This document shows, piece by piece, positions 7,671 through 54,555 of a stretch of 64,000 bases of DNA. The stretch's first letter is position 1; the number at the start of each line of letters is the position of its first letter. Location of the stretch: contig NZ_CP047210.1 in assembly GCF_030408775.1 (NCBI RefSeq), forward strand, positions 1,984,001 to 2,048,000, written 5' to 3'. The translations under genes were made by a program, and so were the position numbers. Below the pieces are notes generated by a model, which saw only the letters and a program-made list of their open reading frames with translations, was not told the origin of the DNA and made no database searches. This stretch comes from Corynebacterium fournieri. GTDB taxonomy: Bacteria; Actinomycetota; Actinomycetes; Mycobacteriales; Mycobacteriaceae.

Positions 7671-7680
7671 GGCCGCGGGG

Positions 7681-7691
7681 CACACGCAGGC
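7681..7691 (+). repeat. 11-bp direct repeat, copy 1 (CACACGCAGGC)
   Basis: An identical 11-mer occurs at 8809-8819. Copy 1 lies 18 bases before the left palindrome of the nuclease unit and copy 2 lies 6 bases before the right palindrome. It may be a remnant of the element or of its insertion. Confidence 0.5.
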
Positions 7692-7709: not shown

Positions 7710-7779
7710 GGTTCCAGCTAGTAAGAGCCAGCTATGACGACTCTAGGGCCTTGATAGCTGGAACCTACTAGCTGGAACC
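7710..7779. repeat. 70-bp nested palindrome, left flank of DUF559 unit 1
   Basis: The outer arms GGTTCCAGCTAGTA (7710-7723) and TACTAGCTGGAACC (7766-7779) are perfect inverted repeats. An inner CCAGCTAT/ATAGCTGG pair nests inside. The core CCAGCTA thus appears twice directly, 14 nt apart, and twice inverted around an 18-nt loop. It lies 29 nt beyond the stop of the nuclease gene. The matching element at 8826-8895 has the same length and layout. Confidence 0.9.
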
Positions 7780-7808
7780 AGACCGCCGACCGGCTCCGTG
7801 CCCCCCCG

Positions 7809-8747
7809 TTACGGCCGGTACGTCGTCGCCAGCACCGTCACTGGGCCACGGCGATCTGCACGCGCCTTCGCCTCGAGCACTCGGCGGATGCACTCAGCCT
7901 CGTGGAACAAGATCTCAACCGGAAACAGATGGAGCACCTCGTACCCCTGCTCCTTCAGCCAATTTTCACGCCGGGTCATCTTCATCACCTCAGCGTGAGG
8001 CATGTCTTCGAATTTGATGTAGCCGTCAATCTCGATGATCAAGTTGCCCCATAGCAGATCCACCCGATACCGCCTACCCACCCACATCTGTTCTTGGACT
8101 TCAATGCCGTGTTCACCCAAGATGACGCGGAAGAGCGACTCCATCGCGGATTCGGACTTCGCCGAACTGAGCTCGAGCGCCTCTCTGGCCAGACCCACGC
8201 TCTTCTTTCCCGCGAGCCGTGCGATCGTGGCCGACAGCGCCGATTGGATGGCATCGAGCTGGAGTGGCGTTTTCTCGCGGTAGAGGCCGTCCATAGCTAC
8301 GACGGCATCGCGCACGCCATGGAAACGGGCGATGTCGACAGCTGTACGCGCCGGGGTGGTGAGGCGAAGCTGGCCGCCGCCACCGGCAGGGTCGAACGCC
8401 TCGAACTCCCGGATGTCGATGTCGGGAACCGCGATGCTGCGGTAGACCACACCCTTGGGCCACTGCGATTTTGACGGCGGCCGCCCGTTTCGCTGCGCCA
8501 GCTCAACGGTCTCGGGATCCTTGCCCACCACCCACATCCCGTACACCCGCGCCGCGGATCTGCCCATCAGCACCGCTTTGTGGGCGCTTACCCCGTGCGC
8601 GTAGCACCGCAAGAACTCCTGCTCGTGGCGGCGGAGACTTTGCCAGTGCGCCAGCGGCACGAATTTCGTTGCGGAGAGCTGCACGCATTCCTGCGACGCG
8701 ACGTCCCCGCGCGCCACCAGCGGCGCTACCAACCGTGCGTGATCCAT
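7809..8747 (-). CDS. DUF559-type (PD-(D/E)xK, VSR-fold) nuclease with AbiEi-like N-terminal region, copy 1
   Basis: The 312-residue protein has an N-terminal region (1-130) resembling AbiEi-type regulator or antitoxin domains and a C-terminal DUF559 endonuclease-like domain (about 195-295). Candidate catalytic residues are Glu203 in ESLFR, Asp230 in YRVDLLW, and Glu239 and Asp241 in IIEIDG; the conserved WLKEQGYEVLHLFP follows. The copy at 53372-54313 aligns without gaps and keeps all four residues at the same positions. ATG 8747 has AGGGGGAAA upstream. The gene lies between two 70-bp palindromes at 7710-7779 and 8826-8895. DUF559 proteins are thought to be DNA endonucleases, but no substrate is known. 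The palindromes are my candidate target. Confidence 0.7.
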   Translation of the reverse strand: MDHARLVAPLVARGDVASQECVQLSATKFVPLAHWQSLRRHEQEFLRCYAHGVSAHKAVLMGRSAARVYGMWVVGKDPETVELAQRNGRPPSKSQWPKGVVYRSIAVPDIDIREFEAFDPAGGGGQLRLTTPARTAVDIARFHGVRDAVVAMDGLYREKTPLQLDAIQSALSATIARLAGKKSVGLAREALELSSAKSESAMESLFRVILGEHGIEVQEQMWVGRRYRVDLLWGNLIIEIDGYIKFEDMPHAEVMKMTRRENWLKEQGYEVLHLFPVEILFHEAECIRRVLEAKARADRRGPVTVLATTYRP

Positions 8748-8808
8748 TTTCCCCCTGAAGTGCGGCCTCCTCCGAGGCAGCGGCTTTGAGATTAGCAGCG
8801 TCCTCCGG

Positions 8809-8819
8809 CACACGCAGGC
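8809..8819 (+). repeat. 11-bp direct repeat, copy 2 (CACACGCAGGC)
   Basis: Identical to 7681-7691. It lies between the nuclease start codon and the right palindrome. Confidence 0.5.
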
Positions 8820-8825
8820 CGTTGC

Positions 8826-8895
8826 GGATCCAGCTACCTAGGGCCAGCTACTTAGCCCCCAGGGGCCAGTTAGCTGGTTCTAGATAGCTGGATCC
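8826..8895. repeat. 70-bp nested palindrome, right flank of DUF559 unit 1
   Basis: The outer arms GGATCCAGCTA (8826-8836) and TAGCTGGATCC (8885-8895) are perfect inverted repeats. The inner CCAGCTA (8844-8850) pairs with TAGCTGG (8871-8877). Cores are again 14 nt apart and the whole element is exactly as long as the left one. It lies 78 nt upstream of the nuclease start, so it could also influence its promoter. Confidence 0.9.
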
Positions 8896-15109: not shown

Positions 15110-15176
15110 GATGGTGAATGGCGGATGGTGAAAATGCGCCACTTTGGGGCATATTCACCATTTGCGATTCACCATC
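15110..15176. repeat. 67-bp nested palindrome between major pilin and base pilin genes
   Basis: Arms 15110-15137 and 15149-15176 pair over 28 nt with few mismatches around an 11-nt loop. The core ATGGTGAA occurs at 15111 and 15125, and TTCACCAT at 15154 and 15168, so cores are 14 nt apart as in the nuclease-associated palindromes, but the core sequence is different. It may also act as an attenuator or mRNA-stabilising stem in the pilus operon. Confidence 0.8.
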
Positions 15177-47029: not shown

Positions 47030-47095
47030 AACCGGCTACCTGGAACCGGCTACCAGCGTCATTTTCGCTTGGTAGCCGGTTCCTGGTAGCCGGTT
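47030..47095. repeat. Solo 66-bp nested palindrome (CCGGCTA family)
   Basis: Arms 47030-47054 and 47071-47095 pair over 25 nt with one mismatch around a 16-nt loop. The core CCGGCTA occurs at 47032 and 47046 and inverted in the other arm. Length, core and 14-nt spacing equal those of the two elements flanking the nuclease at 53372-54313, but no nuclease gene is adjacent. It lies between the YbdK-type gene start and the LytR_C gene end. Confidence 0.9.
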
Positions 47096-53250: not shown

Positions 53251-53316
53251 AACCGGCTACCTCCAACCGGCTACCGGGCGAAAAACCCAGTGGTAGCCGG
53301 TTGGAGGTAGCCGGTT
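53251..53316. repeat. 66-bp nested palindrome, left flank of DUF559 unit 2
   Basis: Arms 53251-53275 and 53292-53316 form a perfect 25-bp inverted repeat around a 16-nt loop. The core CCGGCTA occurs at 53253 and 53267 and inverted in the other arm. It lies 55 nt past the nuclease stop. The reverse complement of the right-flank element matches it along its whole length, loop included, so the two are terminal inverted repeats. The match continues outward by CCGCGG. Confidence 0.92.
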
Positions 53317-53371: not shown

Positions 53372-54313
53372 CTACCGTGGGCGGTGCACAGTGGCGCGGA
53401 CACGCACAGACGGATTCGCGTCCGCTTCCGCCTTCATTTCCAGGATTCGGCGGATGCACCCTTCGGGGTCGCGGATGATCTCTGCGGGAAACAACCGGAT
53501 GACGGCGTACCCCTGCTCCTTCAACCAGCGATCGCGCGTTTCCTGCTTGATCACTTCCTCGTAAGGTTTGTTCTTGAACTTGAGGTAGCCGTCGATCTCG
53601 ATGACCAGCGTTCCCCACAGCAGGTCAACTCGGTATTTCCGGCCTATCCACATCTGCTCGTCGACCTTGATTCGGCGCAGCGCCAACAGCACTCGAATGA
53701 CAGACTCGAACGGCGATTCCGACTTGGCAGAGCTCAGGGCCACAGCTTGCCTCGCCCGGCCGATCCCCCGTTTTCCCCGCATGCGTTCCGCCACCGCAAG
53801 GATGCGGTCGCACCAAGATTGCTGGTCAATCGGCGACGTGCCGGAGTATCGCCCGTCAATGGCAGCCACCGCTTCAGGGATCCCGTGGAACCTCGCGATA
53901 TCCGCCACAGTGCGGGCCGGGGTAGTCACGCGCAGTGTTGCGCCTGCACCGGCGCGATCGAGCGGTTGGCGGACCTCCCAGTCGACCTCCGGGACACGGA
54001 TGTGGCGGTAGAGCACCCCTTCCGGCCACTGCCTTTTCGGGGGCGGGTTGCCGTTGGTCTGCGCCAACTCAACCAGCTCCTCCCCGTTGGGAACGACCCA
54101 CAAACCGTTCAGGCGTGCGGCGGATCTGCCCACCAGCACCGATTTGTAGGCGGCCGCCGATACGGAATAGCAGCGCAGATACTCCCGTTCGTGCGATGCC
54201 AGGCCGTCCCAATCGGCAGTGGCGATGAATTTGGTTGCCGAGAGTTGTCGGCAATCCTGCCCTTCAGCAGCTTGCCTGGACAACAACATCCCAGCGAGGC
54301 GTGCGCGGTCCAT
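53372..54313 (-). CDS. DUF559-type (PD-(D/E)xK, VSR-fold) nuclease with AbiEi-like N-terminal region, copy 2
   Basis: The 313-residue paralogue of the 7809-8747 product aligns with it from end to end without gaps. Candidate active-site residues are again Glu203 (FESVIR), Asp230 (YRVDLLW), Glu239 and Asp241 (VIEIDG), followed by WLKEQGYAVIRLFP. The N-terminal part shares LSATKF, LRCY and GRSAAR. The gene sits inside terminal inverted repeats at 53251-53316 and 54408-54473. A run of nine G (plus-strand C 54317-54325) lies where the Shine-Dalgarno should be, 3 nt before the ATG, with a run of seven G a little further up; slippage there could switch expression. Endonuclease activity is inferred from the family. 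Confidence 0.7.
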   Translation of the reverse strand: MDRARLAGMLLSRQAAEGQDCRQLSATKFIATADWDGLASHEREYLRCYSVSAAAYKSVLVGRSAARLNGLWVVPNGEELVELAQTNGNPPPKRQWPEGVLYRHIRVPEVDWEVRQPLDRAGAGATLRVTTPARTVADIARFHGIPEAVAAIDGRYSGTSPIDQQSWCDRILAVAERMRGKRGIGRARQAVALSSAKSESPFESVIRVLLALRRIKVDEQMWIGRKYRVDLLWGTLVIEIDGYLKFKNKPYEEVIKQETRDRWLKEQGYAVIRLFPAEIIRDPEGCIRRILEMKAEADANPSVRVRATVHRPR

Positions 54314-54407: not shown

Positions 54408-54473
54408 AACCGGCTACCTACAACCGGTTACCACTGGGTTTTTCGCCCAGTAGCCGGTTGGAGGTAGCCGGTT
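54408..54473. repeat. 66-bp nested palindrome, right flank of DUF559 unit 2
   Basis: An imperfect hairpin, mostly paired between 54408-54431 and 54450-54473. The loop ACTGGGTTTTTCGCCCA is the reverse complement of the loop of the left element, showing opposite orientation. It lies 94 nt upstream of the nuclease start. The outermost bases CCGCGG continue the match to the left element. Confidence 0.92.
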
Positions 54474-54534
54474 CCGCGGAGGAGGAGGTAGCCGGTTCCG
54501 CGGAGGAGGAGGTAGCCGGATCCGCGGAGGAGGC
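54463..54534. repeat. Three tandem 24-bp repeats at the outer edge of DUF559 unit 2
   Basis: The unit begins GGTAGCCGGTTCCGCGGAGG and recurs at 54463, 54487 and 54511; the third copy has two substitutions. The first copy is the end of the right palindrome, so one arm core plus its outer flank has been amplified. Confidence 0.88.
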
Positions 54535-54555
54535 GGGGAGGAGGCGGCAGCCCCT

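Follow-up and report, generated by a model that had tools for sequence, protein, structure and literature searches.

Nuclease genes enclosed by four-core palindromes in Corynebacterium: probably a REPIN/RAYT-like mobile system driven by an unrelated enzyme

Background

Why should a single nuclease gene be enclosed, on both sides, by the same elaborate palindrome? The question is raised by a gene found, with its two palindromes (together called unit 1), in a 64,000-nt stretch of the Corynebacterium fournieri genome (contig NZ_CP047210.1, positions 1,984,001 to 2,048,000), hereafter called the window. An earlier note on this DNA had compared the arrangement with the REPINs (hairpin-forming doublets of repetitive extragenic palindromic, REP, sequences) and their REP-associated tyrosine transposases (RAYTs). 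The analysis reported here shows that nucleases of this family are associated with four-core palindromes across the genus, that each gene tends to have its own core, and that units come and go at orthologous loci. Gene and palindromes probably form a REPIN/RAYT-like mobile system, driven by an unrelated nuclease and homing-like in its behaviour.

The unit and its protein

Unit 1 is made of three elements (no strand is assigned to palindromes):

7710..7779, no strand: unit 1 downstream palindrome, CCAGCTA twice direct and twice inverted, 14-nt period
7809..8747, minus strand: unit 1 nuclease gene, 312 aa, predicted AbiEi-like N-domain and Vsr/I-Bth0305I-like nuclease domain
8826..8895, no strand: unit 1 upstream palindrome, core and spacing as in 7710..7779

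The earlier note had placed two 70-bp palindromes around the gene, each with CCAGCTA twice direct, 14 nt apart, and twice inverted, in a unit of 1186 bp (7710-8895); all of this was borne out. In the 70 bp of the downstream palindrome the core starts at 7714 and 7728 and, inverted, at 7755 and 7769, and the arms returned by an inverted-repeat search (35+35 nt) are 80% complementary. The corresponding starts in the upstream palindrome, also of 70 bp, are 8830, 8844, 8871 and 8885, with arms of 34+2+34 nt, 82% complementary. A 13-bp direct repeat (GGCACACGCAGGC, at 7679-7691 and 8807-8819) precedes both palindromes; as a single case, it was not used as evidence.

A two-domain protein is predicted, with an AbiEi-antitoxin-like DNA-binding domain (residues 5-195, approximately) fused to a nuclease domain like those of Vsr and of the homing endonuclease I-Bth0305I (approximately 200-299). 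By structural alignment, the predicted structure strongly matches known folds, both the AbiEi fold and the Vsr-like (EDxHD) homing-endonuclease catalytic fold, and the columns without variation in an alignment of 26 family sequences include those of E203, D230, E239, D241 and K245. Sequence and fold comparison thus agree with the PD-(D/E)xK type proposed before, here of the PD-(D/E)xK/Vsr kind; the description of the protein as a nuclease was right for one domain and had missed the AbiEi-like one. As for the DUF559 label, the profile (PF04480, gathering score 20.6) matches 25 of the 26 aligned members at E<=0.1 and the protein of a second unit (unit 2, below) with a score of 29.1, whereas the unit 1 protein, in spite of its strong fold match, stays below the cut-off (18.2, E=0.0024).

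Palindromes in the window and in the source genome

Palindromes were also sought by a generic detector, which presets no core and scores, for a chosen period, a pair of direct and a pair of inverted 7-mers (maximum 28). At period 14, six palindromes scoring at least 26 were found in the window, against 0-2 at each of the other periods between 9 and 20, and none in any of 10 shuffled windows. Two of the six are solo and had escaped the earlier note. The further elements of the window are:

53251..53316, no strand: unit 2 downstream palindrome, core CCGGCTA inside AACCGGCTACC
53372..54313, minus strand: unit 2 nuclease gene, 313 aa, 54% identity to the unit 1 protein
54408..54473, no strand: unit 2 upstream palindrome, four-core, geometry as in unit 1
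54460..54536, no strand: tandem array in 24-bp steps, outer arm of the unit 2 palindrome
47030..47095, no strand: solo palindrome, same family as unit 2 (AACCGGCTACC), CCGGCTA, no adjoining nuclease unit
15112..15174, no strand: solo palindrome of the TGGTGAA family, a core absent from all five paralogues of this genome; nine copies in genome G179, which has a TGGTGAA nuclease

Here and below, G000 is the source genome, other G-codes are the Corynebacterium genomes compared and L-codes are extracted loci. The similar arrangement reported for the unit 2 gene was confirmed, with a different core: CCGGCTA starts at 53253 and 53267, inverted at 53294 and 53308, in the downstream palindrome, and the upstream one has CCGGCTA at 54410, CCGGTTA at 54424 and inverted cores at 54451 and 54465.

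The source genome (2.39 Mb, 99.9% complete) contains five clear nuclease paralogues, plus a sixth match at E=0.0018; four of the five are 34-54% identical to the fifth, the unit 1 protein. Every one of the five has a nearby period-14 core repeat, each with its own core. CCAGCTA, CCGGCTA and CCAGCGA are found on both sides of their paralogues; CCCCTAG lies upstream of its paralogue, with a second copy about 870 bp past the other end of the gene, and GTAAGCA forms a one-sided array. A genome scan for CCRGCTA, allowing one mismatch per half-pattern, gave 39 half-pattern matches (9 for the reversed control), corresponding to 17 complete palindromes and five unpaired matches. Measured from start to start, forward and reverse halves are 41 bp apart in 16 palindromes and 40 bp apart in one. 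Only four flank the two nucleases of the window, the other 13 being solo.

In evenly spaced samples, the generic detector, set for short centres and period 14, found 7 palindromes per 400 kb of the source genome (other periods gave 0-2), 5 per 200 kb of G179, and none per 400 kb in two genomes without family match, an imperfect control, as their GC content is lower (0.52-0.53). Additional period-14 core families, CCCTGAG/CCCAGAG and CCCTGGG, occur in the source genome without an identified nuclease (L258:3674, L261:1841). Two near-identical CCGGCTA palindromes (L261:5149 and L261:9844, i.e. G000:2225149 and 2229844) enclose a segment of about 4.6 kb which is missing from G002 and G038, where one palindrome is left (CCGGCTA and CCAGCTA, respectively).

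Association across the genus

The nuclease family was found in 139 of 201 Corynebacterium genomes (E<=1e-10), carriers including C. mucifaciens, C. riegelii, C. haemomassiliense, C. gottingense and C. lipophiloflavum. Out of 120 flanks of 450 bp, taken from 60 loci in two overlapping sets and hence with some genes counted twice, 67 reached a score of at least 25 at period 14, and 0-4 at any other period. A search for 14-nt-spaced palindromes beside homologues across Corynebacterium, in line with the check put forward in the earlier note, was run on 69 non-redundant genes (below 70% identity): a four-core palindrome was present within 500 bp in 36 of them at period 14, and in 1-4 at each other period between 9 and 20. 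In the redundant set of 123 genus genes, palindromes scoring at least 25 within 500 bp are located on both sides of 27 genes, on one side of 53 and on neither side of 43. Where they are two-sided, the cores of the two flanks agree in 26 of 27 genes, compared with 71 of 702 cross-gene pairs. The anatomy is exact and the association genus-wide; the initial observation is confirmed, and is larger than first claimed. Distant homologues (L005; L053, L056, L058-L062 and similar loci) often show period-14 cores with a long centre (about 37-47 bp), and these may make up a second class of structure.

Pairs of proteins with the same core make up 0-4% of those below 50% identity, 18% at 50-59%, 0 of 30 at 60-69% and 53-56% above 70%. 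Among pairs at 60-80% overall identity, those with different cores have identities of 0.59 in the N-domain and 0.71 in the C-terminal one (n=38), compared to 0.76 and 0.79 for those with the same core (n=9), some "different" cores being mere register shifts of one core; at 45-60% identity the corresponding values, 0.46 and 0.53 versus 0.48 and 0.58, show no core-linked contrast. Proteins L047 (CCCCTAG) and L049 (CCAGGAG), whose cores differ, are 86% identical in the N-domain and 98% in the nuclease domain. The N-domain may be the one setting the core. At the DNA level (L049 against L047/L004), a G002 nuclease gene is about 91% identical to the G158 copy over the gene and 57 bp upstream only; the flanks are unmatched, and the palindrome adjoining the G002 gene has a different core.

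Core type and nuclease type

Copies of three core families were counted in all 201 genomes. The full TGGTGA palindrome occurs in 9 copies in G179, two of which flank its nuclease, in 1-2 copies in six other genomes and in none of the remaining 194. The full GTCGAG palindrome is found 14 times in G038, 8 in G179, 5 in G002 and 4 in G158, which are the four genomes with a GTCGAG-core unit at the L003 locus (the gene is truncated in G179); G077 has 4 copies, G000 and G195 one each, and 194 genomes none. Exact CCRGCTA half-patterns number 29 in G000, 32 in G002, 37 in G038, 33 in G069, 18 in G179, 17 in G090, 14 in G035 and 12 in G158, then 5 in G077, 4 in G096 and 0-2 in the other 191 genomes, with a reversed control of 0-8 per genome, 0 in most. 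Five of the eight genomes with at least 12 matches (G000, G002, G038, G069, G035) have a CCRGCTA-flanked nuclease among the genes examined; the single family match of G090 lay outside this check. The pairing of core and nuclease is therefore clear in two families, TGGTGA and GTCGAG, and incomplete in the third. The stricter statement that CCRGCTA copies are abundant only in genomes with a cognate nuclease was given up on recheck.

In G090, CCRGCTA direct pairs are plentiful, the forward and reverse halves being separated by about 84 bp rather than by 40-41; this may be a related system whose centre is longer. Some GTCGAG palindromes of G038 (contigs C3, C5, C8) and G179 (651985, 652237, 1895721, 2248405) are similar and partly clustered, about 220-350 bp apart, and look like a larger repeat bearing the palindrome.

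Control patterns for the full TGGTGA and GTCGAG palindromes had no match in any of the 201 genomes. High GC content is all that speaks for palindromes arisen by chance in GC-rich DNA; these zero counts, together with the specificity for period 14 and the empty shuffled windows, led to its rejection, and its probability is practically negligible.

The distribution of cores also bears on the idea that a different enzyme moves the palindromes, which the nuclease merely uses or tolerates, for instance as a hairpin-recognising defence or DNA-repair enzyme. The repair enzyme Vsr is among the nearest folds, and palindromes persist without an identified cognate nuclease (15112; CCCTGGG and CCCTGAG; CCRGCTA in G179 and G158). 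Against this idea, the HUH tyrosine transposase domain Y1_Tnp (PF01797) had 0 matches in the source genome, in a search that was positive in 5 of 14 control genomes. Moreover, the core is common to both flanks of a gene, and two core families concentrate in genomes having the cognate unit or its remnant. We regard a separate mover as decidedly unlikely. The absence of a Y1_Tnp match, the defining enzyme test of REPIN/RAYT systems, led to the rejection of a RAYT.

Orthologous loci

Comparison of orthologous loci for empty sites, also proposed before, was carried out and revealed full units, solo palindromes and empty sites as alternative states of the same locus. At the unit 1 locus the gene is present with two clear palindromes in G000 and G069, one clear and one degenerate in G002, and one clear in G038. 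G179 has no gene and a degenerate palindrome (score 24) whose centre (ATCGGCCCCTGG.GGCGAAAA) and broken arm recur in the upstream, degenerate palindrome of the unit in G002: one and the same palindrome, without and with the gene. The flanking matches are 14 bp apart in G158 and 22 bp in G016, and neither unit nor palindrome was found in G189.

At the L003 locus a CCAGCGA-type unit is present in G000, with same-core units at a similar chromosomal position (by position, not by flank alignment) in G016 and G189; its place is taken by a GTCGAGT unit in G002, G038 and G158, by a truncated gene between GTCGAGT palindromes in G179 and by a solo CCAGCTA palindrome in G035, and no palindrome was found there in G009, G121 and G069. 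The nucleases at the unit 2 locus have five different cores (CCGGCTA in G000, TGGTGAA in G179, ATGGTGA in G069, GGCGCAT in G016, CGAAGGG in G009), and the locus is empty in G195, with flanking matches 3 bp apart. At the place of solo 47030, G069 and G016 each have a palindrome whose core is that of the unit 2 nuclease in the same genome. The CCGGCTA palindrome at G000:2225149 is replaced by CCAGCTA palindromes in G179 and G069, and that at 2229844 has no palindrome as counterpart in G179 and G158.

Three different palindromes, of which G158 has two and G038 one (L130:545-2390, L130:8570-10440, L112 from 1535), are interrupted in their centre by an IS3-type insertion sequence (IS; HTH_21, rve, rve_2). 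In L130 (G158:C1:1409900-1421300) the segment from the solo site to the unit 2 site has the opposite orientation to that in the window, and the palindromes at its two ends each contain an IS copy.

Structure and genomic context of the palindromes

Arm complementarity outside the cores was evaluated by shuffling arms among elements. In the TGGTGA family (11 distinct elements) the non-core spacers are complementary at 78% within an element, compared to 41% with arms shuffled (0 of 5000 shuffles reached the observed value), and the arms show 28 compensated changes. Support is weaker for the five CCGGCTA elements, 95 of 5000 shuffles reaching the observed complementarity. An earlier, looser test, in which near copies and subfamilies were kept, had given 0 of 2000 for both CCGGCTA and CCAGCTA. 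Such covariation fits a hairpin or cruciform substrate, or a process in which one arm is copied from its partner. The outer ends seemed asymmetric, with ATCCGCGG on one side, a feature that was inspected and then set aside.

None of 37 solo elements falls inside a predicted gene. The 34 that could be classified lie between convergent (13), tandem (16) or divergent (5) genes, against 22, 90 and 44 of 156 intergenic gaps of the source genome; genes were predicted by a simple hexamer model, and the elements come from several genomes, some being mutually orthologous. Divergent solos were 0 of 11 in a first small set.

This context is relevant to a reading of the palindromes as operators, in which the AbiEi-like domain, bound to the upstream palindrome, shuts down the gene that encodes it, the solos are a small regulon or harmless decoys, and the nuclease domain does something else. 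The promoters of AbiEi and Rv2827c are described as containing 23-bp inverted repeats to which these proteins bind (PMC7319586); a unit often has one palindrome upstream of the gene, the fold match to AbiEi agrees, and an operator role is compatible with mobility. Against it stand the palindromes located downstream too (both flanks in 27 of 123 genes), the enrichment of solos between convergent genes (13/34 vs 22/156) and not between divergent ones (5/34 vs 44/156), and the turnover of sites between species. As the whole explanation, operators seem unlikely.

Proposed mechanism

We infer the following mechanism. The protein would form a symmetric complex on its four-core palindrome of 62 bp: each subunit would read one 21-bp half-site (two repeats of about 11 bp, with a 14-bp period) through its AbiEi-like domain, and the two Vsr/I-Bth0305I-like domains would work on the middle of the site. 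Once nicked or broken there, the DNA could be repaired from another copy, and homing would convert a solo palindrome into a palindrome-gene-palindrome unit; recombination between the two palindromes of a unit would collapse it to a solo. Solo palindromes may also spread in trans into intergenic sites, in the way proposed for REPINs and RAYTs, and N-domain and core would change together, giving many incompatible specificities. Central cutting or nicking with repair from another copy would explain the different specificities seen at one locus in related species. That nuclease and palindrome form a mobile system we judge somewhat better than an even bet. The fuller proposal, of a novel class of selfish DNA in which AbiEi-Vsr fusion nucleases home on and spread their own four-core palindromes, domain and palindrome re-targeting together so often that related species hold incompatible sets at the same loci, is more tentative, and its chances fall somewhat short of even.

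Several results weigh against mobility. The 43 genus genes with no palindrome scoring at least 25 within 500 bp are mostly, not only, distant homologues, and a spread of the association beyond the genus, sought in 28 loci of an order-wide search, was discarded as there was no excess at period 14 (2 matches, compared to 6 at period 19). G016, with seven family matches, had no short-centre palindrome in a 200-kb sample. None of the genes examined in the CCRGCTA-rich genomes G179 (3 of 7 matches) and G158 (2 of 4) is a nuclease of that core, G069 has a TGGTGA-type unit 2 nuclease and a single exact full copy, and the four GTCGAG copies of G077 are without an identified nuclease of that core. The trend of core with protein identity is partly spoiled by register shifts. 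CCAGCTA covariation weakens once near copies are removed (11 elements, 352 of 5000 shuffles reaching the observed value). The flanks of the loci compared are about 70-94% identical, so that exact junctions are unreadable, and part of the turnover may reflect sequences that diverged where they stood. For a cell with a dozen or more of these sites in its chromosome, an efficient double-strand cutter would be toxic, so that cleavage must be restrained. Finally, no target-site duplication was seen at 31 elements (direct flank repeats 5.19, 5.56 when shuffled), in a comparison for which no close relative with a clean empty site was available.

That no target-site duplication was seen also speaks against an IS-type transposon, with the nuclease as ordinary transposase, the palindromes as terminal repeats and the solos as miniature inverted-repeat transposable elements. 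Such an element would account for a gene between repeats; its ends, however, are complete palindromes, unlike ordinary terminal inverted repeats, and no near-identical second unit exists in the source genome, where the other paralogues are distant from unit 1. A transposon of this type is quite unlikely.

If the mobile system is real, a second, unrelated type of enzyme with the life style of RAYTs would show independent evolution, and AbiEi DNA-binding domains and Vsr-like nucleases would be tied to genome mobility. As the putative target adjoins the gene, dozens of nuclease/target pairs would be at hand for working out a recognition code, in effect a natural nuclease library with targets readable from the flanking DNA.

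Comparison with known systems

REPIN/RAYT systems are described as single, distinct nuclease genes adjoining their own type of dispersed intergenic palindrome, with several types per genome and co-diversification (PMC3116915, PMC8266576), and ISs are reported to insert into REP palindromes (PMC8450116). Here too the nuclease adjoins its own palindrome type (80 of 123 genus genes), copies are dispersed and intergenic (13 of 17 CCRGCTA palindromes are solo, and the solos avoid predicted genes), and ISs insert into the palindromes. RAYTs are HUH tyrosine enzymes, in contrast to the AbiEi-like and Vsr-like domains of this family, and are described as unable to move themselves, whereas here whole units come and go. 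The HUH tyrosine enzymes (RAYTs) are, to our knowledge, the only enzymes tied to dispersed bacterial palindromes of this sort. The REP sequences of REPtrons are described as small hairpins tagged with GTAG (PMC8266576); the arms here are direct repeats with a 14-nt period, and to the eye their cores and ends vary from family to family and share no tag of the GTAG/CGTC type, no systematic tag search having been made. The likeness drawn in the earlier note thus holds for the adjacent palindrome, the intergenic solos and the presence/absence between species, and not for the enzyme or for the build of the palindrome, two direct repeats then inverted. The same note would have given up the idea if palindromes were equally common beside unrelated genes; most CCRGCTA copies do lie away from nuclease genes, and the test is ill-chosen because REPINs also lie away from their gene; what decides is whether core type matches nuclease type.

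The other relatives share parts of the system. I-Bth0305I (EDxHD, Vsr-like) is intron-encoded and its target is interrupted by its intron; the present gene is free-standing, with two flanking copies of its putative target and many more in the genome, and the unit, solo and empty alleles are compatible with a gene that is copied into a cleaved target. Vsr, the very-short-patch repair endonuclease, nicks at T:G mismatches and is not known to have such a DNA-binding domain or palindromes, both of which accompany the Vsr-like nuclease here. The AbiEi antitoxin of the type IV AbiE toxin-antitoxin system differs in that the related domain is here fused to a nuclease, and its putative sites flank the gene on either side and are also scattered elsewhere. 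We know of no dedicated nuclease adjacent to the mobile palindromes of yeast mitochondria. Those are reported as short, dispersed and mobile (PMC4478555), similar in this respect, and belong to a eukaryotic organelle. No description linking such nucleases with dispersed palindromes was found in the literature searched by titles and abstracts, with bioRxiv and most subscription journals outside its scope, and the claim that no system of this kind had been described stands within that range. Compared with all of these, the nuclease and its palindromes look like small mobile DNA of a kind not described before.
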